In this document: in pieces, positions 2,117 through 14,035 of the stretch | How the letters are laid out: every line of letters begins with the position of its first letter | How positions within the stretch are numbered: the stretch's first letter is position 1 | Assembly (NCBI GenBank): GCA_944319885.1 | Contig: CALUFC010000002.1 | Span: 62,001-126,000, forward strand | Source of the DNA: an uncultured Coriobacteriaceae bacterium | GTDB lineage: Bacteria; Actinomycetota; Coriobacteriia; Coriobacteriales; Coriobacteriaceae | DNA length: 64,000 nt | Direction of reading: 5' to 3' | Translations under genes and position numbers: made by a program | The notes under the pieces: generated by a model | Database searches by the model: none | What the model was told of the DNA's origin: nothing | The model's input: only the letters and a program-made list of their open reading frames with translations

Positions 2117-2142
2117 CCTATCGCCCGTATAATGGCGATAGG
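2117..2142 (+). promoter_or_regulatory. -10 box enclosed by a 9-bp inverted repeat (promoter/operator of the TIR gene)
   Basis: A perfect TATAAT lies at 2128-2133, about 90 bp before the TIR start codon. It is enclosed by CCTATCGCC (2117-2125) and its exact reverse complement GGCGATAGG (2134-2142). No good -35 is visible. A palindrome centred on the -10 element is the expected layout of a repressor operator that blocks RNA polymerase. The factor is unknown. Confidence 0.55.
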
Positions 2143-2221
2143 GAGCACGGGCAAGTCGCTCACGAGGGCAAGCACGCGCTTTCACCCACACCTTCACGAT
2201 CGACCCCGTACAAGAGGCCCC

Positions 2222-5200
2222 ATGGAATGCCCGAAGTGCCATAGCCCCCTTATCGCCGACGCCGCCTTCTGCCCACGCTGCGGGGCACCTATCGATGGCG
2301 CACCGGACTATGACGAGTATGCCTACGAGGCATTTATCTCGTACAAGCACCACAAGCGCGATGGCGCGCTCGCCAAGCGCATCCAGCGGGCCATCGAGGG
2401 TCGTCGCCTGCCGCGTGACATTGGCGGGAATCGCGCCGGAGATCGCTTGGGCAAGTGCTTCCGCGACGAGGACGAACTCCATTCGAGCGATTCGTTGCCG
2501 GCGCTCATCGAGGACGCCCTCAAGCATGCCCGCTACCTTATCGTGATCTGCAGCCCCGAAATGCGCGTAAGCGCTTGGGTGGCGCGCGAGGTGGAGCTGT
2601 TTGCCTCGTACCACGGCCGTGACAAGATCTTGCCGGTACTGGCCGAGGGCGAGCCCGCCGACTCGTTTCCGCCGCTGCTCATGACACGGTTGGAGTCTGA
2701 AGGCGACGCCTATGTCGAGCGCCCCGCCGAGCCACTTGCCGCCGATATGCGCGACAGCTCATATAAGCATTTCTCTGCCGAGGTGCTGCGCCTCGTGGCA
2801 CCCATCGCCGGTTGCGGATACGACGACTTGCGCCAGCGCGAGCGCACGAGGCGCCTCACGCGCATCGCCGTCGGAGCGGCAGCGGCAGCCGTGGTCGCGG
2901 CCGGCTTCGGCGCCTTTGCGCTTTTCCAGCAAACGCAGATTCAGGCGAACCTCAATGCGGCGCTCAAAAACGAAAGCGAGTACCTTGCCGAAGAGGCGAC
3001 GACCATCCTCGAGCAGGGTGACCGCCTGCAGGCGGTGCAGGTGGCGCTCCATGCGCTCGGTGACGGCGAAGGCGTCAACCGACCCTACACGCCATCTGCC
3101 CGCCTCGCGCTTGAAGAGGCCTGCCAGGTCTATCCCGGCAACTACTGGCGTCCGGTATATGCGAACTACGAAAAGTCAGCCTTTCGCGATGACAACATCA
3201 CCGTGAGCGACAGCGGTTCGTACTACGCGGTCGGGTTTTGGGACGATGCCACTCGTGTATACGATGTGACAACAGGCCTCGCCACGTGTGAGATCGAGGG
3301 CTCCAGCAAAGAAACTCGCATCTGTGCGCCCGCATTTGCCGGCGAAACGCTCCTCGCCGCCTACACCGACGGCGGCGTCGAAGGCTACGACCCAACAACA
3401 GGCGAGCGCTTGTTTCGTGTCGAGATGAGCCTTGATAGAGAAAACTACGTCTACCCTCAACTTATCACCCCTTCGCCGGATGGCAGCATGGTCATGGTCA
3501 CCAGCTTTAGCAGCTCTTCTCCAGCAACTATTCAGATAGCGCTCATTGACGTTGCAGCCGGCTCTTTGCAAGCGACCTGGAATCTGCCTTGCGAAGCTGC
3601 GCTCGGAGATTACGAATACTCATCGATTGACCCCTTTTCAGCTTCATTCTCTGAGGACGGCAACACATTTGTCCAATCGCTCGGCACGCAGGTTGCCATG
3701 TTTGATCGTTCGCAGAACGCATGGACCACGCATCCCGTCGATTCCGGCGTAATCTCCGATATACGCATCGAAGATGCCTTATACCTTGCAACTTTTGAGG
3801 AGCACGATGCAGGCAGCCGTTTTCACATCGAGCGCTACGATCTCGAAACGCTTTCATGCAGCTGGAGCCATGATCTCGATGCCATCACTACGTCGAGCTA
3901 CGAAGATGTCGCCCTTCCCATCTTGGCGCACACCGTCGAACACGAGGAAAGTCGTCTCCTTCCCATAGCGTACAACGACCGCATATCATATCTTTCCTGC
4001 CAAGACGGCAGCGTGGCGCTTGACATCCCAACCGGTGGCCAAGTAGAAACCTTTACCCATGCCACTGAAGGGGTCTCTCTGTGCTATGTGAGCAGCGGAC
4101 GTATCAGCACGCTCTATAGCCCCTTTGATCTGGGCGATATCGCGTCTCTCGGCGTGACCAACTTGAGTAGGCCCACGTCGGGCCCTTCATCGTATGGAGA
4201 AGAGGATGCTACGGGTGCGGCGGGCATCAAGCTGTTCAGCTCTGGAGACGAGACCTATTGCCTGCTCGCCAACGAGAGCGAACGGAGAATCCTCGTCTAC
4301 CGGTACGACCGCGACCAGGAAAAGCTGCCCGAGCGCACAAAACTCGACGAGGACATCCATGCAGCCTGCGACGATGAAACGATGCTCCGCAGCGCATCCG
4401 GCGCATATCGCGCGGTGCTCGATTACGACACCGACACGATTACCTGCTTCGACGGCAATACGTTCGAAGTCACCGCCACCACATCGCTTGCCGACCTTTG
4501 CGCGCTTGCCAACGCCGACGACAAAACAATCGTTGCCGAATGCGCGTTTAGCTCCGAACGCGAAGAGTTGCTCTATGTAGTGCTCAATAGCAATCTCCTC
4601 GTTGCCCTCGACGCAGCAACGGGCAAGGTTGTGGGCGGGCCCGTAGAGAGCACCTTGCTGCACCTAGAAAATTTTGCCGAGCAGGACGGCGAGCTTGTCT
4701 ATATAGATCGAACATTTGATGTTGATTCGCTCAAGGATATCTTCCAACTTGTCCACCTCGATGCAACCTCACTCGAAGAGCACTCGCGCAGCACCATCCA
4801 ATTCGATAAAACCATGAACATCTTTACCATCGACGAACTCGAAACCGTGGACACCCGCGCCGTCATCCGGTGGAATGGCAACAACACGAACCGCGTTATG
4901 GTCATCGACATGCAATCGGGAACTCCTGTCGATGCCGGGATATCTAGAAACCTCGACAATAGCCACAGGGAGCAAACCTTCTTGGCAGATGAGGCACATG
5001 AGCGCCTCATGTTTGTCATTGACGATGTAATCACCCTCTACGACAGCAATCTCGATGAACTGTGGTCATATCGCATTGACGGGGCGTCATGGAGCTATGC
5101 CAACTTCATCCCCGGCGACGATGTAATCGCGCAGTCCGATACGGGCGAGTTGATATGGCTCGATGGAGACACCGGTGCCGTCATCGCCAGAACAACGACG

Positions 5201-5500
5201 CTTCCAGACAGCATTACCATCAACCACATATGGGCAAGCGATGATGGAGAGCATCTCTATGCTGAAGGCTTTTCATTCGCGCTTTCAATTAACCTCGATC
5301 CTCATGCGTTCGACATCGAATCGTACATTCCGTGCTGCAAAGCGCAATCGAAAGACGGGCAATCGGTGCTCATATGTGACAGCTTCAATGCCTACACCCT
5401 CCCCACTTACACCACCGACGAGCTCATCGACTATGCGCAGCGCCTCATCGAGGGGCACGAGCTCACCCACGAGGAACAGCGGCGCTACCACATCGAGTAG
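2222..5500 (+). CDS. Zinc ribbon - TIR - transmembrane - beta-propeller protein
   Basis: 1092-residue protein. An N-terminal zinc ribbon has Cys 3, 6, 17 and 20. A TIR domain of the bacterial DUF1863-like kind spans about 36-160, with FISYKHH at the first strand, FRDEDEL around 80-86, and SAWVAREVEL. In that segment Glu123 aligns with the catalytic glutamate of NAD-cleaving TIR domains such as SARM1. A basic stretch (RQRERTRRLTR) precedes one membrane helix at about 215-237, then a coiled linker, and then some 800 residues of repeated short strands that read like WD40/PQQ-type propeller blades. The positive-inside rule puts TIR in the cytoplasm and the propeller outside. The ATG at 2222 was chosen over the longer frame from 2084 because of its AAGAGG ribosome site and the natural Cys-rich N-terminus. 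It converges on the zinc-ribbon kinase gene. Function is unknown; signalling or defence is inferred. Confidence 0.85.
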   Translation: MECPKCHSPLIADAAFCPRCGAPIDGAPDYDEYAYEAFISYKHHKRDGALAKRIQRAIEGRRLPRDIGGNRAGDRLGKCFRDEDELHSSDSLPALIEDALKHARYLIVICSPEMRVSAWVAREVELFASYHGRDKILPVLAEGEPADSFPPLLMTRLESEGDAYVERPAEPLAADMRDSSYKHFSAEVLRLVAPIAGCGYDDLRQRERTRRLTRIAVGAAAAAVVAAGFGAFALFQQTQIQANLNAALKNESEYLAEEATTILEQGDRLQAVQVALHALGDGEGVNRPYTPSARLALEEACQVYPGNYWRPVYANYEKSAFRDDNITVSDSGSYYAVGFWDDATRVYDVTTGLATCEIEGSSKETRICAPAFAGETLLAAYTDGGVEGYDPTTGERLFRVEMSLDRENYVYPQLITPSPDGSMVMVTSFSSSSPATIQIALIDVAAGSLQATWNLPCEAALGDYEYSSIDPFSASFSEDGNTFVQSLGTQVAMFDRSQNAWTTHPVDSGVISDIRIEDALYLATFEEHDAGSRFHIERYDLETLSCSWSHDLDAITTSSYEDVALPILAHTVEHEESRLLPIAYNDRISYLSCQDGSVALDIPTGGQVETFTHATEGVSLCYVSSGRISTLYSPFDLGDIASLGVTNLSRPTSGPSSYGEEDATGAAGIKLFSSGDETYCLLANESERRILVYRYDRDQEKLPERTKLDEDIHAACDDETMLRSASGAYRAVLDYDTDTITCFDGNTFEVTATTSLADLCALANADDKTIVAECAFSSEREELLYVVLNSNLLVALDAATGKVVGGPVESTLLHLENFAEQDGELVYIDRTFDVDSLKDIFQLVHLDATSLEEHSRSTIQFDKTMNIFTIDELETVDTRAVIRWNGNNTNRVMVIDMQSGTPVDAGISRNLDNSHREQTFLADEAHERLMFVIDDVITLYDSNLDELWSYRIDGASWSYANFIPGDDVIAQSDTGELIWLDGDTGAVIARTTTLPDSITINHIWASDDGEHLYAEGFSFALSINLDPHAFDIESYIPCCKAQSKDGQSVLICDSFNAYTLPTYTTDELIDYAQRLIEGHELTHEEQRRYHIE

Positions 5501-5533
5501 CATGCCGCCACGCGCCGGCAGGCACGACTGCCA

Positions 5534-6913
5534 TCAACTCAGTAACCCGTAGAGCACCACACCGCCCACTACAAGCGGGACGGCAACATCGCCCACTGCA
5601 TCAGCAAGCCCTCCGACGGCAGATGCGGCAGCGTCGGCTAAGCCTGGCACGAAGATCATTGCGATCACAACAGCAGCGACCGCAGGCCAGAAGAGCTTAT
5701 CGGCCGTGTCGACCCACGAGGCGGTCTTGGGCGCGGCAGTCTTGGGTGCAGGCGTTGTGTTTGAGGTACACCCGGTGCCGGCAGCGCGCTTCGTCTGCCC
5801 AGCTGTGGACACCGCGCCAGACGCCGGTGCCGGCTTTTGCGCCGCCGCAGCGCATGTCTTCGCAGCGCTCGCGCGCTTGGCCTTTGCACGTGCCCCGGCC
5901 GCGCAATACGGGCAGCTCGACACGCTCGCGCTGTACCAGTGATGGCCATCGGCAGCACATTGTGTAAGCTCCCGCCGATACCGTTCGAGCGCACGGCACC
6001 ACGCGGAGGCGGTGGGGCGGGCACCGGGGTCGGCGGCGGACCTCACAAACGCACGCTGGAACAAATCGGTGACATATGCCGGAAATGCCGAGATATCCGG
6101 TGCGAAACTCGGCACCTTTACGCGCGGCACATGGGCGAAGAACGGTGTTGCCCCCTGCTCGATGCGCTTATCGACCGGCAGCGGCGCCGGATACGAGCCG
6201 TTTTTGTCCGGCAGCGTCACGCAGTGATACGGATGAACGCCGTTCATGAGCATGCGGAAGATATGCAAAGCCAGCGCAAAGCGATCCGTCGCCTTGGTAA
6301 AGGTCTCGCCGGGCGCATCTTTGTAGGTGGTTCCGCGCACCGCTCGCAGCAACTCGGGTGCGTTGTACCCGGGCATGCACACCTCGCAGCGATACTCTTG
6401 GTGCTCGATGTTCACATGAAATGAGTCCACATCCACCATACCGGGCCTGCAGCCGTTCTCGAGCACGAGAACGTTACGGGTGTTGAAATCCCCGATAACC
6501 TGGCCCATCCCATGCAGCGCATCGACCATGCGGCAGAGCTCAATGAGGTAGTCGATCTTCTCGAGCTGCGACATGTCGATATCCGCGGGCGCCGGATACG
6601 CACAGACGTCCTCGAGCTTGCGATGCGAGGGCATGCAGCGCATCCCGAATCCTACGAAATGCTGGGCGTCGGGATCGGCATACAGTGCGCCCATGGGCCA
6701 TGCGATATGCTCGAGCGCCCGGATTCCCGCAACTTGCGGATACACCGACACCATCGCCTCGATCTTCCACCGATGCCGCTCAGGGTCGGCGAGGTAGATC
6801 TTCGCCACCAACCGCGACCGACCATTCATCTGGTAGATGGCCCCTTCTCCACCCTGCGCCAACGGCTTGCTTGCAAGCTCAACCCGCTCACCATGCTCGG
6901 TGTAGACAATCAT
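5534..6913 (-). CDS. Protein kinase-like protein with zinc ribbon and C-terminal membrane segments (TerY-P-type kinase)
   Basis: 459 residues. The glycine loop is GGEGAIY (21-27), the ATP lysine is in VAKIY (Lys38), the catalytic loop is GDFNTRNVLV (Asp142, Asn147), and a DVD (161-163) stands where DFG is usual. So the fold is that of a Ser/Thr kinase with changed HRD and DFG motifs but the key residues kept. A zinc-ribbon-like CAADGHHW...CPYC follows around 345-370, then an Ala/Lys-rich linker and hydrophobic segments at the C-terminus. The start is at 6913, not the long upstream frame, because GGAG directly precedes it. It is 22 bp downstream of the PP2C gene. VWA-PP2C-kinase with a zinc ribbon corresponds to the TerY-P triad described for Ter-type stress systems by Anantharaman, Iyer and Aravind (2012). 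Confidence 0.82.
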   Translation of the reverse strand: MIVYTEHGERVELASKPLAQGGEGAIYQMNGRSRLVAKIYLADPERHRWKIEAMVSVYPQVAGIRALEHIAWPMGALYADPDAQHFVGFGMRCMPSHRKLEDVCAYPAPADIDMSQLEKIDYLIELCRMVDALHGMGQVIGDFNTRNVLVLENGCRPGMVDVDSFHVNIEHQEYRCEVCMPGYNAPELLRAVRGTTYKDAPGETFTKATDRFALALHIFRMLMNGVHPYHCVTLPDKNGSYPAPLPVDKRIEQGATPFFAHVPRVKVPSFAPDISAFPAYVTDLFQRAFVRSAADPGARPTASAWCRALERYRRELTQCAADGHHWYSASVSSCPYCAAGARAKAKRASAAKTCAAAAQKPAPASGAVSTAGQTKRAAGTGCTSNTTPAPKTAAPKTASWVDTADKLFWPAVAAVVIAMIFVPGLADAAASAVGGLADAVGDVAVPLVVGGVVLYGLLS

Positions 6914-6935
6914 CTCCAGCCCCCTTGTTCCCCCA

Positions 6936-8114
6936 TTACCCGTCACGACCGCGTCTCCAGCTGTTGTGCAGGCTCCGTGCCATTTCCCTGCAGCCATCGC
7001 CCGCAGCACGGCCCGCCTGCGCAGCCGCCTGCACGGCGCGCTTCCACGCCGGCATCGCCTCGCGCACGGCATCGCCCATGGCATCCGCCACGGCGTCTGC
7101 TGTTTCGGCAAGGTCGTCAAGCGCTGTCGATGATGTTGTCGCCCGAGCAGACGTGGTGGCTGCGTCGACGGCTGTCGATGGCGGGCCCGGCGCATCCGCC
7201 GCACCCTCCGCCTGTTCGCCCTCCACATCCGCCTCGGCCTCCCGCTCCGCACGCTCAGCATCTTCCGCTGCATATGCCGCCATCACCGCCTCATGGCGCT
7301 TGCGCCGGATCTCGTCCCAATCGGGCGCCGCATAGTACGCGTCGGGCTGACGGGCGGGAAATTCTGCATCGTCGCAGATCACCACGAGCGTCTTGTCGTC
7401 ATCGATAAGCCCGCGCGGATAGCGTGCCAAAAATGCCTCAGCTTGCTGTTGCAGCTCGTCCACATGCTCTGCATCACCCTCTTGCGGATGCAAAAAGAGA
7501 TGACACTTCTCGCGGTCAAGAGAAATCCCAGCAAAGCGCTCCACCACAGGCGGCGCAAGCATCCCCTCGAGCACGCCGTCGGTGGCTAGCAAGCAGGTCG
7601 CCACGCCCTCCAGATGTCCAAACTCCCAATGGTCGTCGAAGCACAAAGGGAATACGCGCCCCTGCTCGTCGCGCTGCATCGTGGTGACCGGCACATACGT
7701 GCCATCATTCAAACACGCCACCAAGCCGGAATCGCCCGACTGGCCCCAGAACAGCGCGTCACCGTTGAAGATAGCCGCACAGAGCGTCGAGTCAAACTCC
7801 GTCACCGACTCCCCCGTCTCTGCCGCCCGCGCTGCCACTGCGTCGTAGCAGGCATAATATGCCTCGCGCATCATGGCCTCGAGCGCTTGCTCTCCCTCAC
7901 AGGCAGCGAGATGCGCGCGGCACCACGAGACGAACGTTTCGGCTGCCACCCGACTTCCCACCTGCGAGTAACGCTCCGATCCCAAGCCGTCGGCAACGGC
8001 GGCAATGACGATACTGCCCGCGTCATCGCACCAGACAGCGCATGAATCCTGGCAAGGGATATCGCGCAAGACGTGCCCGGGACCTGCGATGTTCACCTGA
8101 TATGAATAGAGCAT
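6936..8114 (-). CDS. PP2C-type protein phosphatase with acidic/Ala-rich tail
   Basis: 392 residues if started at the ATG at 8114, which has GGAG 6-7 nt upstream; a longer frame begins at 8144. Metal-dependent PP2C motifs are in order: IPCQDSCAV (Asp23), VADGLGSE (Asp42), WGQSGDSGL in the middle, CLLATDGVLEGML with the metal-binding DG, and a final DDKTLVVIC. The catalytic core therefore looks intact. After about residue 270 comes a charged, low-complexity region and a predicted helical tail of unknown role. The gene lies between the VWA gene (58 bp upstream) and the kinase gene (22 bp downstream), and it presumably reverses that kinase's phosphorylations. Confidence 0.87.
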   Translation of the reverse strand: MLYSYQVNIAGPGHVLRDIPCQDSCAVWCDDAGSIVIAAVADGLGSERYSQVGSRVAAETFVSWCRAHLAACEGEQALEAMMREAYYACYDAVAARAAETGESVTEFDSTLCAAIFNGDALFWGQSGDSGLVACLNDGTYVPVTTMQRDEQGRVFPLCFDDHWEFGHLEGVATCLLATDGVLEGMLAPPVVERFAGISLDREKCHLFLHPQEGDAEHVDELQQQAEAFLARYPRGLIDDDKTLVVICDDAEFPARQPDAYYAAPDWDEIRRKRHEAVMAAYAAEDAERAEREAEADVEGEQAEGAADAPGPPSTAVDAATTSARATTSSTALDDLAETADAVADAMGDAVREAMPAWKRAVQAAAQAGRAAGDGCREMARSLHNSWRRGRDG

Positions 8115-8172
8115 CGCTCGCTCCTTCCCCACCGCATCGACCACATCGACCGGTGATGCACCTCACACTCCC

Positions 8173-8901
8173 CTAGTTATTGAGCCAGCCATCGAGCGAT
8201 GTCACAGCAACCGAGCTATCGGCCGTGCCAATCGTGGTGGGCACGTGCAACGTCGCCCCCGGCGCGCTCGTGCTCGCTGCCTTCACGCTGTTCGCCGCAA
8301 AATCAAAGAACTCATGGAAGTCGTAGTCGCCGTCTTTCATCTCGAAGCAGAACTTGCCGTTCGCCTGGTTGAGCTGGGCCGCCGTTGCCTTGTCGTAGTC
8401 GCCAACGCCCAGGAAGAAGAGCTTCATCTTGCCCTCTCCGATACGCTCGTTCACCAACTGGGCCGCCTCATCCACGTTGCCGCGCACCGTGTCCGCACCA
8501 TCGGTCATGACGATGAGGTAGGGTTTCTTCTCAGCCATCATCTCGTTTTCGTGGTAGTAGCGGGTGCGCTCGCGAATCTTCTCGATACCCGTGATGACCG
8601 CGCCGTTGAGATCGGTCAGGCAGCCGCAGCGCAGCTCGGAGGGGCGCATGTCCTTGATGGGACGCCAGTCCTGCACGATGTGCACCTCATCATCAAAAGA
8701 GATCACGCATACGTCGACATTCTCCTCTGCCTCCTTGTCCTCGCAGATGATGTCCCTGAACCGGTTGAGGTTCTCGTTGATGATGTGGATGAACGGCTGG
8801 ACCGAACCCGAGGTGTCAATCGCAAGCACCACCGACATATGCTGGTCGGACGTGTAGTTGGGGATCTCGGTGGCAAAACGATCCTGCTTGAACAACGACA
8901 T
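8173..8901 (-). CDS. TerY-like VWA domain protein
   Basis: 242-residue single-domain von Willebrand A protein. The metal-ion-dependent adhesion site is seen as DTSGS (29-33), the threonine in CLTDLNGAV, and the aspartate in VMTDGADT. The segment from LAIDTSGSVQPF to the LN-rich helix resembles TerY of tellurite-resistance clusters. There is no signal peptide, so it is cytoplasmic. ATG at 8901 was chosen because AAGGG lies about 8 nt upstream; the longer frame to 9105 would swallow the ribosome site. It is the first gene of a three-gene leftward unit, VWA-PP2C-kinase. In TerY-P systems the VWA protein is thought to act as a scaffold regulated by phosphorylation; here that is inferred from order only. 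Confidence 0.87.
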   Translation of the reverse strand: MSLFKQDRFATEIPNYTSDQHMSVVLAIDTSGSVQPFIHIINENLNRFRDIICEDKEAEENVDVCVISFDDEVHIVQDWRPIKDMRPSELRCGCLTDLNGAVITGIEKIRERTRYYHENEMMAEKKPYLIVMTDGADTVRGNVDEAAQLVNERIGEGKMKLFFLGVGDYDKATAAQLNQANGKFCFEMKDGDYDFHEFFDFAANSVKAASTSAPGATLHVPTTIGTADSSVAVTSLDGWLNN

Positions 8902-9213
8902 GATGCATCCCTTCTCTCTCGAGCCGATCGCCCTGTGCGATCCGTCGCGCTCGCGGGCCGCGCCGTCTGGCGCCTCCCGTTGGCTGAGATTGTGGGACAT
9001 GGCCGAAAAAGGGCTTGCGCAAGGATGCATGAGGACGCTTGCCCGTGTCTCTACCGCCCATGCCGTGCGCTGTGTATGGCTGTCATGCCGCGATATGCAT
9101 TTCATTCATCATTTCCGCAGGTATTTATGAAAAATATGCGCATAATGTTGAGCGGTGCCCTAGCACAACCAGTCTCGTGGTCAAATCGATGGGGTTATGG
9201 ACATCTGCATGCA

Positions 9214-9247
9214 TGCGCTGCGTGATTCATATGGATCACGCAGCGCA
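9214..9247. repeat. 13-bp perfect inverted repeat with 8-nt loop
   Basis: Bases 9214-9226 pair exactly with 9235-9247; the core is GCGCTGCGTGAT and its complement around an 8-nt loop. No T-run follows on either strand. It is a candidate operator or transcript hairpin ahead of the VWA gene. Confidence 0.6.
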
Positions 9248-9392
9248 ATCAGGCATAGAACATGGTTTTCTGCCGCCTAAATCCAGCAGGAAACGCCCAT
9301 CAGGCACCAAAACGGTGCTCAAAACGAATGCATATGCCCGCTCGTAACCCATAGGTCCGCCTTCGTGACCATCGAAGCGGGTGTGCTACGAA

Positions 9393-9417
9393 AACACAAC
9401 GGAAATCTGTTTGTGTT
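9393..9417 (-). terminator. Terminator-like hairpin after the RyR-kinase gene
   Basis: Read on the minus strand, AACACAA pairs with TTGTGTT across an 11-nt loop and is followed by a short T-run. It lies about 40 bp beyond the stop codon of the kinase-RyR gene. The stem is short, so confidence is moderate. Confidence 0.45.
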
Positions 9418-9459
9418 GCGCGCCATGACGCCGCGCGGGCAATAACGGCGACCGAGCGG

Positions 9460-10914
9460 CTAGCGTACGATGGCAAGGTCAACCTGGGCCAGCAAACGCG
9501 GGATATCGCGCACATGCGCCCGATTGTACTCACGCGACGCCTCATCGAGCTCGCTGTACGGCACGAGCGCGTTGCTGATGCGGCGCTCCACATCCTTCAC
9601 CGGTCCGTATGTCCATCCCGCGTCGCGACGCTCCCGGCACCAACGCCGATGCTCAAGGTAGGCGAGATACTCAACCTCTTCGGGCGCAAATCGCTCGATG
9701 CGGCGAGCCGGATCGGCACGATCCGCCGCAACGATCGAGCAGCCGATGGCATGCACCTTCGCCGGGATGTCGCGCACCTGCGCGGCCGTGGAATCGGCCA
9801 GCACGTCGGGCTGGGCCTCGAGCGTTGCAAAGGCCACCGCCGCTCCCGTTGCACGCGTCTGATCGATATAGCGTCGGTACGCCTGCTGGGTGAGGCCGTC
9901 CATCGCACCGTACATCTTGGTTTCCGGCCGCCTCCGTGCCAGCAGCGCGCGGTCATAGGCGTCGAGATATCCACCGTGATGAATCGTGTCCCGCGCAAAG
10001 GCGAGCAGCTCGGGATCGGGGAACGCCTGCGCATCGACGCGCGGCAGGCAGAGCTCGCGCGCACGCGGCTCGATATCGAGCTCATGGTCGATATGGCGCG
10101 CGAATAGCGAGCCGTCTGATACATAGGCAACAAGCGGCCACGCACCCTGCAGGCGAGCGAGGTCGTTGGGATCCGCCGCATCGATATGTTGTCCCGTCGT
10201 CACCTCGAACTGCAGCGCCGCGAAATACGCCATGTCGATCATGAGCGGGGTTATGCCAGCGGGATCGATGCGCACGCCCATCGAGGCGGGGATGCCCAAA
10301 AACAAGCTGGTATACGGCTCGTTGCGATAACGGATGCAACTCTGTGCCGCGATGGCCGAGAGCTCGAAATCGATAATCGTGGCATGCAGGTCTTCCGGCG
10401 CGGGGCCGTAGCGCTTCACACACACGTTCGCCGCGCGCAGATCGCGGTGGAACACGTGGTTGGCATGCATGTTGGCAAGCTGCACGAGCACGTCGAAGCA
10501 TATCTTGCGTGCCTCGCGAGCACGCGTATCGGTATCGGGCGGCGCGAGCGGCGCAGCTGGACCTCCCTCGGCATCGATGGGCGCACCGTCGAAGATGGCG
10601 CGCTCGAGTGAAACGCCGGCGTACTCTTCGACGAGCGCAAGCTGTTGCCCGCGTGGGCCATGGCTCACATAGGGGCAAAGCAGCCGCGGGCCCACGCCGA
10701 TCACGCCGTTGCGTGCCAAGCAGGCGACTTCCGTTGCGTACGACGCCGCCGCTGTGTCGCGAAACACCGCCAATACCGCATCGGTACGCGCGCCCGCCGC
10801 ATCAACGAAGGTACCGCGATGCAGCACCTTGCGTTCTGAGGAGACCACCGGCGCGATATCGGCCTGGTAAAAACTTCCAGCCTCACCCATGAACTTGATG
10901 GATGTCGCTCCCAC
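9460..10914 (-). CDS. Atypical protein kinase fused to a C-terminal RyR domain
   Basis: 484 residues, GTG start with AGGGG just upstream. The kinase half keeps the catalytic loop HRDLRAANVCV (HRD 156-158, Asn163) and an IIDFELS in place of DFG. The usual VAxK lysine appears lost: the matching strand reads DAVLAVFRD. It may therefore be a pseudokinase or use another lysine. The last 80 residues or so (EEVEYLAYLEHRRWCRERR, then GWTYGPVKD, LVPYSELDE and a closing DIPRLLA) carry the ryanodine-receptor repeat (RyR) signature. In bacteria RyR domains are proposed to be ligand or nucleotide sensors in conflict systems. It is 9 bp downstream of the FHA gene on the same strand. What it senses is unknown. 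Confidence 0.8.
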   Translation of the reverse strand: MGATSIKFMGEAGSFYQADIAPVVSSERKVLHRGTFVDAAGARTDAVLAVFRDTAAASYATEVACLARNGVIGVGPRLLCPYVSHGPRGQQLALVEEYAGVSLERAIFDGAPIDAEGGPAAPLAPPDTDTRAREARKICFDVLVQLANMHANHVFHRDLRAANVCVKRYGPAPEDLHATIIDFELSAIAAQSCIRYRNEPYTSLFLGIPASMGVRIDPAGITPLMIDMAYFAALQFEVTTGQHIDAADPNDLARLQGAWPLVAYVSDGSLFARHIDHELDIEPRARELCLPRVDAQAFPDPELLAFARDTIHHGGYLDAYDRALLARRRPETKMYGAMDGLTQQAYRRYIDQTRATGAAVAFATLEAQPDVLADSTAAQVRDIPAKVHAIGCSIVAADRADPARRIERFAPEEVEYLAYLEHRRWCRERRDAGWTYGPVKDVERRISNALVPYSELDEASREYNRAHVRDIPRLLAQVDLAIVR

Positions 10915-10923
10915 AAGGCACCC

Positions 10924-12345
10924 CTACAGCACGTCGAATTCCGAGTCGCCGAGGTAGAGCCTATCGCCGCGCATGAGCGGCGCGCTCGGCACCTCGCCTT
11001 CACGCTCGTGGGTTCCCAGATACACCCGCTCGCCGGTTGCACGCTGAACGATCGTGCCGTTGCTCGACGCAAGATCGACGGCGAACACCGTGCCGTCAAC
11101 GGCATAGATGCCCACATGGCGCGCAGAGTCCGCCGGCAGATCGGTGGGATAGAAGTTCTCGCTGCTCTCGGCGGCACGCGCCTCCTCTGAAGCGGCGAAT
11201 GCAGCAGCCGCATCTTGAGAGGCCGGCAAGGCCCGGACCTCGCCACCACATTCGCGACCGATGATAACGATAAGCTCGGAACCCTGCTCTGGCAGCGCAT
11301 CGAGATTCACAAGACGCACCGTATAAGCCCTGTTCCCCGGCAGCAGCTGCCGGATGAGCGCCTCGCCGCGCCCGCGTTCGAGTACGCCGGCAACCGCGAG
11401 CTCGCGCGGAACAAACGGCGCGATCTCGGTGCGCGCCAGCTCGTCGGCATAGCAGTTCTTGAGCGCACGCTTAGGACCAAAGAACGCGCTGATAACAACG
11501 TTGTAGATCATGGCGCCCTTGTGCGCGTTCCACAGCGAGCTGCAGGTGTAGAACGAGTCTCGGTATGCATCGAACGATTCGAGCGTGGTGTTCTCGAAAT
11601 ACCGCACCGTCGCCTCATGGTAACCCGCGCGCCTGAAGGCGTCCGCCAGACGTGCCACGAGTTCTTCCACCGGCGGCCGGCCCAGTGCGGGATCGTCCTC
11701 AAACCGATCCCATAGGTCGAGACCCCACAGGAGGGTGTCCTGGCCCCGCTCGGTCTGCATGATCTTCTTGAATGCATCGGCACCAGGCGTCATGTGCTGG
11801 TAGCGCGCCTGGTCGCGCTTCGTTCGCTCCAGGAATCGGTCGAGTTCGGCGTCGTCGAACACATCGGTATACTGCTCACGCATCGCAGCGATGAGCTTCA
11901 TGGTCTTGTTGTCGTAATCGACGGGCGGCCATCCATGGCAGAAATCACGCCGGAGCTTGTCGTCGCCCTTTTCGCTCAAACGCAGCGGTGAGTTTCCGTA
12001 GCTCTCGCGCGCCTTCTGGAGGCGTGCGCCTGAAAGCTCCTCAAGGTCGATGTTTTTACCCTGGAACGCCGAGGCGCCGAACTCCGCCAACGCGCAGCGA
12101 AACACCAGCTGCCGCTCGGGATTGGCTACAAGCCGCGCGGAGAAGACGCTCTCGGGCAGCACGCCCACCAGCGCATTGCGGTTGAAAAGCGCGCGCTCGA
12201 CGAACATCTGGGCATCGGAAACATGCTCGATACTCGTAGGCCCGCCGCCCAGCTCGCGATCGCTCCGGTACGCGCGCGTGGTGTCCTTGAACCCACCGGG
12301 CAATTCGTACAGCGCGTCCCGCAAAACAATCAGGGACTCGAGCAT
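10924..12345 (-). CDS. Large protein with C-terminal FHA domain
   Basis: 473 residues with a strong GGAGGT ribosome site. The final 115 or so residues form a forkhead-associated domain: LIVIIGRE at the start, ARH for the S-x-x-H loop, and VFAVDLASSNGTIV for the conserved D-x-x-S-x-N-G-T. An Ala/Ser-rich insertion of about 40 residues sits between the GR and the serine loop. The N-terminal 350 residues are mixed alpha/beta with conserved-looking aromatic segments (ENTTLESFDAYRDSFYTC), and I do not recognise them. FHA domains bind phosphothreonine, so this protein is a likely reader of marks set by the neighbouring kinases. It is 9 bp from both the PP2C-like gene upstream and the kinase-RyR gene downstream. 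Confidence 0.8.
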   Translation of the reverse strand: MLESLIVLRDALYELPGGFKDTTRAYRSDRELGGGPTSIEHVSDAQMFVERALFNRNALVGVLPESVFSARLVANPERQLVFRCALAEFGASAFQGKNIDLEELSGARLQKARESYGNSPLRLSEKGDDKLRRDFCHGWPPVDYDNKTMKLIAAMREQYTDVFDDAELDRFLERTKRDQARYQHMTPGADAFKKIMQTERGQDTLLWGLDLWDRFEDDPALGRPPVEELVARLADAFRRAGYHEATVRYFENTTLESFDAYRDSFYTCSSLWNAHKGAMIYNVVISAFFGPKRALKNCYADELARTEIAPFVPRELAVAGVLERGRGEALIRQLLPGNRAYTVRLVNLDALPEQGSELIVIIGRECGGEVRALPASQDAAAAFAASEEARAAESSENFYPTDLPADSARHVGIYAVDGTVFAVDLASSNGTIVQRATGERVYLGTHEREGEVPSAPLMRGDRLYLGDSEFDVL

Positions 12346-12354
12346 GGCACCTCC

Positions 12355-12939
12355 CTAGGACAGCCGGATCACCACGGCCGCCGCACCTGCCTTCTCCCCA
12401 TGGGCGCCTGCCGCCGCCACGAGTGCGGCGGACGCATGCTCTGGCGTCTGCGCCTCCAAGCAGATGCGCTCGATCGCAGGTGCCGAAAGATGCCCCCATA
12501 GCTCGTTCGTCATGAGCACAAGATAGCGGTCTGCAGCCGTTATGCTGACAGTATACCGTTCAATCGTTGCCAACGTGAGGCGACCCGAACCGACATAGCA
12601 CCAGAGCCTTTGCCGCGGCCCCAGCTGCGGCGCGAACAGAAAGCGCACGCCGCGAACGCCCACGATGGCGCCCATGGTGTCGCCCGCGTTGGCAAGCTCG
12701 ATACACCCAGCGCCGCCCCACATGGCAATGCACGCCGAGCCCCTCTGCCCGCGCCGGCTCAGCAGCTCGTCGGCACGAAGTAGAAGGCGCGCGGAAAGAT
12801 CGCCCCTGCTCGAAGCGAAGATTCGCACGGTGCACGCGCGTGCGCTGGCGCCTCCATCCCCGCTGAACAGGCATGCGCCATCTGCACGGTGCGCGTCCGC
12901 GATGCCGATTCCCGTTGTTTGGATGAGCGCCTGCTGCAT
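12355..12939 (-). CDS. Degenerate PP2C-like protein
   Basis: 194 residues, ATG at 12939. The C-terminal half shows the PP2C core pattern: CIELANAGDTMGAIV (compare ANxGDSRAxL), then YLVLMTNELWGHLS, where active enzymes read DGLWGxxS, then a closing alternating helix/strand. The metal-binding Asp-Gly is replaced by Asn-Glu, and the N-terminal first metal site is not recognisable, so the protein may bind phosphoproteins without hydrolysing them. The upstream frame to 13248 is a shadow of the next gene. It is probably the first gene of the PP2C-like/FHA/kinase-RyR unit. The start is uncertain because the ribosome site (GGGGGCG) is weak. Confidence 0.7.
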   Translation of the reverse strand: MQQALIQTTGIGIADAHRADGACLFSGDGGASARACTVRIFASSRGDLSARLLLRADELLSRRGQRGSACIAMWGGAGCIELANAGDTMGAIVGVRGVRFLFAPQLGPRQRLWCYVGSGRLTLATIERYTVSITAADRYLVLMTNELWGHLSAPAIERICLEAQTPEHASAALVAAAGAHGEKAGAAAVVIRLS

Positions 12940-13099: not shown

Positions 13100-14035
13100 C
13101 TATACCTCGGCAACCTCGATGCCGCCGAAGACCTCGTCCCAGTGCTCGATGGCGAGGTGGCCGGTCTGCGGATCCATCGCGTTGAGCTTGCCGCAGGTGT
13201 TGCCGTAGCGCAGCACGTCGACGTCATCCATGCCGGCGGCGATGGCATGCGCGAAGCCTGCGACCGTCGAGTCGCCCGAGCCGGTCGCGTTCACGGCCTC
13301 GATGGCCGGCGTGACCACGCGATAGCGCTTGTCACCATGGAAGGCCACAGCACCGGCGGCACCCATCGTCACGACCACCCATGCGACGCCCTGGAAACGC
13401 GGGTCCGCCGCAACGGCATCGCCTAGCTCGGCGGCCTGCTCGGTGGTAAACGAGGTGCCCAGCAGCCCGTTGATCTCGGTGAGGTTGGGCTTCACGAGCG
13501 TGGGTTTCACGGGCGCGGCGAGCGCCTCGTCGAGCGCCGCGCCCGAGGTGTCGAGCAGCACCGGCTTGCCGGCATCGACCGCCGTCCTCACCATGGCGGC
13601 ATAGGTAGACGCGGGAACGCCCTTCGGAAGGCTGCCGGAGATGGTCACGCAATCCGCCTGTGCAACGAGATCGGCGTAGTTGCCGAGAAACGCCTCGAGC
13701 TCCTCGGGCGAGATCTCGGGACCGCTCTCCAAAAGCTCGGTCTGATTGCCGTCGTGCAGCAGCGCGATGCACGTGCGCGCCTCGCCGGCGATCGGCGTGA
13801 AACGATGGGGAATCCCATCGGCATCCATAAGCTCGGAGAGATAGGCGCCGGCATGACCGCCCAAAAGACCCGTCGCCACCACGTCGTCACCCAGCTGCAC
13901 GAGCACGCGACTCACGTTGAGCCCCTTGCCGCCGGCCGTCTTGGCGGGCGTCACGCGGTTGACATCGTCGATAACAAGATGCTCGACCTCGTAGCGCGTG
14001 TCGATCGACGGATTCATGGTTACGGTGAGAATCAT
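13100..14035 (-). CDS. lacC: Tagatose-6-phosphate kinase / 1-phosphofructokinase (PfkB family)
   Basis: 311-residue cytoplasmic kinase. It probably makes tagatose 1,6-bisphosphate from tagatose 6-phosphate. The LacC/FruK-type N-terminus MILTVTMNPSIDTRY is followed by KTAGGKGLNVSRVL, HDGNQTELLESGPE, and the catalytic ATGSGDSTVAGFAHAI near residue 255. The length is normal. The 5' region has a TACAAT (14111-14116, minus) and a GC-rich hairpin around 14051-14072 close to the start. It is divergent from galactokinase and follows the aga-type genes, which produce tagatose 6-phosphate through AgaS. FruK activity cannot be excluded. No tagatose-bisphosphate aldolase is in the window. Confidence 0.88.
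   Translation of the reverse strand: MILTVTMNPSIDTRYEVEHLVIDDVNRVTPAKTAGGKGLNVSRVLVQLGDDVVATGLLGGHAGAYLSELMDADGIPHRFTPIAGEARTCIALLHDGNQTELLESGPEISPEELEAFLGNYADLVAQADCVTISGSLPKGVPASTYAAMVRTAVDAGKPVLLDTSGAALDEALAAPVKPTLVKPNLTEINGLLGTSFTTEQAAELGDAVAADPRFQGVAWVVVTMGAAGAVAFHGDKRYRVVTPAIEAVNATGSGDSTVAGFAHAIAAGMDDVDVLRYGNTCGKLNAMDPQTGHLAIEHWDEVFGGIEVAEV

Follow-up and report, generated by a model that had tools for sequence, protein, structure and literature searches.

Comparison of a seven-gene locus of a gut bacterium with related loci in other genomes shows that its conserved core is made of three modules: a TIR-propeller protein, a RyR (ryanodine-receptor Repeat12) domain, and a domain named X here. 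The gene cluster suggests a new Toll-like signaling pathway, probably acting against phages. The reading that we lean towards, at somewhat better than an even chance, is a Thoeris-like circuit in which a surface TIR protein would make an NAD-derived signal, RyR would read it, and X would be the part controlled.

Architecture of the locus and its core proteins

The window (the whole 64,000-nucleotide stretch of DNA analyzed here) belongs to a 2.02-Mb assembly whose close relatives by sequence, where named, are Coriobacteriaceae and Collinsella-like. Seven open reading frames (ORFs) at positions 2222 to 12939 are open and intact. The TIR gene lies on the + strand and the other six on the − strand in two runs, the first encoding a kinase, a PP2C, and a VWA protein (5534 to 8901) and the second a kinase-RyR protein, an FHA protein, and a degenerate PP2C (9460 to 12939). 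The preferred starts are 2222 (+) for TIR and, all on the − strand, 6913 for the kinase-zinc ribbon, 8114 for PP2C, 8901 for VWA, 10914 for kinase-RyR, 12345 for FHA, and 12939 for the degenerate PP2C. The first-pass annotation had described seven genes in about 11 kb on these strands, and all were found intact at about these positions. Pfam support was clear for the TIR, zinc ribbon, propeller, PP2C, VWA, and RyR domains, weak for both kinases, and marginal for FHA and the second PP2C; the last two calls were upheld because of the FHA fold model and the profile scores of homologues. The seven proteins matched no named system in PADLOC or NCBIfam.

The TIR-propeller protein (1092 residues; 2222 to 5500, + strand) was delineated from Pfam, an alignment of 20 sequences, PDB TIR matches, and hydropathy and charge. 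It comprises a zinc ribbon (residues 3 to 24; Pfam, 5e-6), a TIR domain (residues 38 to 145, positions 2333 to 2656; TIR_2, 3.8e-9), one transmembrane helix (residues 212 to 236), and a beta-propeller region (residues ~326 to 1005; PQQ/propeller, 2e-8). Four residues past a conserved tryptophan, the TIR domain carries a glutamate that is invariant across the 20 homologues and aligns with the residue-86 glutamate of the plant TIR protein Roq1, which makes cyclic ADP-ribose isomers; the catalytic role of this glutamate is well established. In the homologues, a single hydrophobic helix follows the TIR domain, with 4 to 9 lysines or arginines before it and usually 0 to 3 after it. Because of this skew, the positive-inside rule predicts that the TIR domain is cytosolic and that the propeller is outside the cell.

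The kinase-RyR protein (484 residues; 9460 to 10914, − strand) was recognized from a RyR profile, a structural model, and fold matches, with a model confidence of 59.8 overall and ~80 within RyR. Its RyR, or Repeat12-like, region (residues 333 to 484; 9463 to 9918, − strand) matched PF02026 with an E value of 7.2e-13 (49 bits, against a curated cut-off of 27.4). In the model fold search, the same residues matched a Bacteroides RyR protein and Repeat12 of human RyR3 (Z score of 10.2 over 108 residues, 2.7 Å); unlike the human protein, the window RyR is bacterial, sits on a kinase, and is not a channel. The atypical protein-kinase domain (9934 to 10905, − strand) had a weak Pfam match (3e-5), and residues 4 to 324 matched protein kinases in the fold search (Z score of 8.1 over 225 residues, 5.5 Å). 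According to the alignment, it keeps the HRD aspartate, the asparagine, and the DFG aspartate and is without the usual beta-3 lysine, given which the kinase may be inactive. A second, truncated RyR frame of 174 residues is found elsewhere in the same genome (L034 9641-10162; G000:C12:56647-56811).

The X-FHA protein (473 residues; 10924 to 12345, − strand) was characterized by sequence, Pfam, modeling, and fold matching. Overlooked by the first-pass annotation, its residues 1 to 295 form a separate, conserved, and all-helical domain in the model, namely, domain X (11461 to 12345, − strand), which was delimited by the model and a profile survey and has no Pfam match. The FHA domain (10927 to 11403, − strand) scored 0.13 in Pfam by sequence alone, and its homologue at locus L042 scored 1.9e-6. 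The model of 10924 to 12345 matched FHA folds (best Z score of 10.1 over 86 residues, 2.2 Å), and the domain carries SSNGT, which fits the SxNG motif of FHA phosphothreonine readers. FHA folds were the only matches in a search with the X-FHA model, in which the X part was modeled, within the full protein, at low confidence.

Linkage of TIR, X, and RyR across genomes

A profile of X retrieved 15 loci in 14 of 298 Coriobacteriia genomes, and at all 15 a TIR-propeller gene and a RyR domain were present within 10 kb. The first-pass annotation had grouped the TIR gene with the RyR and FHA genes; far from being usually absent from such loci, TIR accompanied every X/RyR locus of this class survey. 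X is fused to RyR at 8/15 loci, and the kinase and FHA are absent from all 8, whereas at 7/15 loci RyR is carried by the kinase and X is joined to FHA in all 7. Both architectures occur within one genus (genomes G224 and G252). The kinase-FHA pair was therefore read as a substitute for the RyR-X fusion, such that a phospho-relay seems to take the place of the covalent link. The earlier proposal that kinases write marks read by FHA fits this joint presence and absence. In two loci (L042 and L045), TIR, X-FHA, and kinase-RyR follow one another in a single same-strand run. A wider scan for further copies, covering 84,980 genomes, added six X-RyR fusions adjoining TIR-propellers and two X-RyR copies truncated by contig ends, in which the propeller can still be recognized; an exception, locus L074, has X-RyR with no TIR within 10 kb. 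More distant loci in G015, G183, and G283 combine kinase-RyR, X-FHA, and the degenerate PP2C with no full TIR gene within 10 kb, and in G183 a TIR of 165 residues is located ~17 kb away.

The association between RyR and TIR was also examined independently of X. RyR (PF02026) is rare, with 38 matches in 32 of the 298 Coriobacteriia genomes, and TIR_2 is present in 59 of the 298. TIR_2 was found within 10 kb of 20/38 RyR matches, where TIR counts and genome sizes would predict 0.46, and 24 of the 32 RyR genomes carried TIR (Fisher 5e-13), these linkage probabilities being ones that ignore shared ancestry. General clustering in defense islands was rejected as the source of the link: in the same 32 genomes, N6_Mtase (64 matches) was near 1/38 RyR loci and AbiEii (47 matches) near 2/38, versus 20/38 for TIR (40 matches). 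The first-pass annotation had called for a neighborhood search in other phyla, and the linkage reappeared in an unrelated order, Lachnospirales. Among 295 genomes around a Lachnospiraceae genome, TIR was within ~6 kb of 7 of the 20 RyR loci (~0.35 expected), and 19/20 RyR genomes carried TIR somewhere, compared to 131/295 overall. The TIR-RyR link thus spans several architectures and two phyla. Given the three-way linkage, TIR, RyR, and X were therefore taken to be one functional group.

Other arrangements of RyR were encountered during these surveys. At L036 (6321-9970), a TIR-propeller gene overlaps a RyR gene of 108 codons, and two human faecal phage records (MT836850 and MT837259) carry RyR domains 54 to 55% identical to this RyR, a possible case of counter-defense. 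L049 (6655-13630) has two different RyR proteins in tandem, immediately followed by a TIR membrane protein. A single protein at L026 (9911-12538) joins RelA/SpoT, TPR, TRPM-type SLOG (LSDAT), and RyR, and its gene is flanked on each side by propeller genes. Finally, clostridial-type clusters (L100 8156-12376 and L106 to L108) contain a PP2C, a 1400- to 1500-residue protein harboring RyR internally, and a separate RyR protein of ~100 residues; in L100, the giant protein has a protein-kinase match and a Card1-like nuclease domain at its C terminus, and TIR genes are found near L106 and L108.

Optional modules of the locus

TerY-P triads consist of a VWA protein, a PP2C, and a kinase-zinc ribbon protein (PMC11090510, PMC7159879), and a corresponding set, with the kinase-zinc ribbon less certain, is encoded by the adjacent genes at 5534 to 8901 in the window. 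The first-pass annotation had equated the two, and this held well for the TerY-like VWA protein (8173 to 8901, − strand; Pfam, 1.5e-6), whose MIDAS motif DTSGS...T...D can be read from the sequence, and for the active-type PP2C phosphatase (6936 to 8114, − strand; PP2C_2, 5.2e-28). The picture was less clear for the kinase (5534 to 6913, − strand; sequence, Pfam, NCBIfam, and hydropathy), which has a weak kinase match (0.0007), a zinc-ribbon-like CxxC motif (CPYC), and a C-terminal membrane hairpin, with no match to a C-terminal zinc-ribbon profile in Pfam. PADLOC models gave no convincing TerY-P match at the window triad. Small proteins that resemble each other and share a DTCSLL motif, PIN-like on inspection, lie beside the triad kinase at L025 (4242-4889) and L045 (17694-18302) and are not found in the window; that of L045 has no Pfam match. 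The degenerate PP2C (12355 to 12939, − strand; Pfam and homologues), scoring 0.07 in Pfam, was rightly named as such beforehand, as a homologue scores 1.7e-6 for PP2C and homologues keep the DGxGG that the window copy has lost.

Both the triad and the pseudo-PP2C are optional rather than core. The full triad is present within 10 kb at only 3/15 X loci (the window, G066, and G036), with the kinase ~5 kb away in G224, and the degenerate PP2C at 5/15. With the kinase and FHA also absent at 8/15 loci, we rejected the seven genes as one fixed system, as first proposed, and neither the triad nor the second PP2C was retained as a necessary part. Whether the triad acts with its neighbors at all is evenly balanced in our judgment. 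It and the TIR-X-RyR genes could be two separate cassettes that came to be neighbors and do not act together, an arrangement compatible with TIR-to-RyR signaling. The scarcity of complete triads at X loci favors this view, as does their habit of riding with other systems, including CoCoNuTs, where they are termed non-core (PMC11090510), and in L033, a decayed copy of the locus, the match to the window extends no further than position 9290, between the two − strand units. On the other hand, the triad repeatedly accompanies more than one form of the system, being found in the window, G066, G036, and L076 and, in G183, ~4 kb away from the kinase-RyR unit.

A candidate TIR-to-RyR circuit and its alternatives

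Many bacterial TIR proteins involved in defense deplete NAD+. Since the catalytic glutamate is present in the window TIR, the kinases, FHA, RyR, and propeller could together sense infection or stress, with TIR as the final NAD+-depleting killer, much as the first-pass annotation had it. This is unlikely in our view: TIR here is a receptor-like membrane protein retained at all X/RyR loci surveyed in the class, and the kinase and FHA are missing at half of these loci. RyR domains were reported in 2026 as phage proteins sequestering or degrading TIR signals, binding or cutting the TIR-made molecules 2′cADPR and 3′cADPR (PMC13232231), and a RyR domain would hence fit better downstream of TIR. Because RyR domains bind these TIR products and RyR-TIR linkage is seen in two phyla, a signaling role for TIR appears more likely than that of an effector paired with a RyR sensing something unrelated.

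A second doubtful alternative is ordinary surface signaling, in which a gut ligand or wall stress would be sensed through the propeller and defense would play no part. The predicted extracellular location of the propeller is in keeping with it, as is the setting of the window copy among sugar-metabolism genes. The right-hand flank (pfkB, galK, nagA, and agaS) is kept in relatives, and two pfkB-like genes (1-847 and 13100-14035; proteins 62% identical) bracket the locus. Nonetheless, several features resemble those of immunity genes, namely, patchiness, decay, swapping of modules, and the neighbors found elsewhere. Presence is patchy at this fixed site among relatives, since five of them (G599, G242, G601, G165, and G018) have the pfkB-nagA-agaS flank with no system gene. 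At the same chromosomal site, a related genus (G027; L033 14686-15711) has a decayed kinase-RyR/FHA/PP2C copy with neither TIR nor triad, in which a ~3-kb internal deletion joins the start of the degenerate PP2C to the final 53 residues of RyR. Some Eggerthellaceae copies adjoin AbiEi/AbiEii, type I restriction-modification, RhuM, HipA, or PIN genes. A defense role is plausible.

The residues of RyR bear on whether it would read or remove a TIR product. The reference was RyDEP (Mycobacterium phage DyoEdafos gp78), of an anti-Thoeris phage family, in which an H75-D117 dyad is needed for cleavage and H100 contacts a phosphate; several natural homologues bind 2′cADPR and 3′cADPR without cutting them (PMC13232231). 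The window RyR resembles this family in that H75 and W78, invariant in the alignment, correspond to H422 and W425. It differs in being host encoded and in belonging to a set of RyR domains fused to a kinase or X beside a TIR gene, and its dyad is incomplete, with asparagine at the D117 position, and serine at that of H100. The D117-equivalent aspartate is absent from all TIR-linked X-RyR fusions, including all Eggerthellaceae copies, and three TIR-linked RyR domains (L022, L042, and L045) keep the dyad histidine and aspartate as well as H100. Because H75 and W78 are kept while D117 and H100 are replaced, the window RyR would be expected to bind its ligand rather than cut it and is probably a receptor, not an enzyme; the serine at the H100 position could weaken or change its ligand preference. 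It is quite improbable that RyR is a brake soaking up or degrading leaked TIR product to prevent accidental firing, as might be argued from the sponge or glycosidase activity of phage RyR proteins (PMC13232231) and from the three domains with intact residues, since the D117 aspartate is missing from the window RyR and from every Eggerthellaceae X-RyR copy and a pure brake would not need fusion to an output-like partner such as the kinase or X.

The TIR-to-RyR circuit builds on gene content, linkage, the fusion/relay swap, the TIR and RyR residues, predicted folds, and sequence-derived topology. The TIR-propeller protein would span the membrane, the propeller facing outward and the TIR enzyme facing the cytosol, and perturbation of the propeller or membrane would lead TIR to convert NAD+ into a small ADP-ribose-type signal that RyR would bind and leave intact. 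Where the system has two genes, as in Adlercreutzia hattorii (L065), signal-bound RyR would directly switch on the fused X. In the window form, the bound signal would turn on the atypical kinase carrying RyR, the FHA domain of the X protein would read the resulting phosphate mark, and X would act as output here too. Phosphorylation would be tuned by two add-ons, the TerY-P-type triad and the pseudo-PP2C, and the system would most likely serve to protect against phage or some other threat to the envelope. That TIR makes, RyR reads, and X acts is the simplest circuit because the RyR family has been directly shown to bind TIR products. Several observations weigh against it: the window TIR gene lies on the strand opposite the other six, TIR is missing within 10 kb at L074, G015, G183, and G283, the H100 position is serine and the kinase is without its beta-3 lysine, and defense-gene neighbors accompany only some copies, the window copy sitting between sugar-metabolism genes.

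As in Thoeris (a ThsB TIR protein with a ThsA effector), a TIR with a catalytic glutamate adjoins a gene for a domain able to bind ADP-ribose-type signals. However, RyR would be the reader here, the TIR domain belongs to a membrane protein whose propeller is predicted to lie outside the cell, some loci add a kinase-FHA pair as a putative relay, and no SIR2, SLOG, or Macro domain was found by Pfam in the seven proteins; for want of a SIR2-SLOG or Macro partner, the locus is not a member of Thoeris as defined. A full-text literature search, with most subscription papers outside its reach, found no paper on host RyR-TIR loci. The locus joins two immune themes so far apart, TIR-made cyclic ADP-ribose signals and RyR domains. 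More tentatively, and rather short of an even chance, it could represent a Toll-like pathway in which the NAD-derived messenger of a membrane TIR is read by a host RyR, with output through a fusion or a kinase-FHA relay. Were this the case, receiving TIR messengers would be an ancestral role of the RyR Repeat12 fold. An old question is whether Repeat12 lets animal ryanodine receptors bind cyclic ADP-ribose. If hosts use RyR as a receptor, phages may have captured RyR from their hosts, and the two-gene bacterial form would offer a test of that question.
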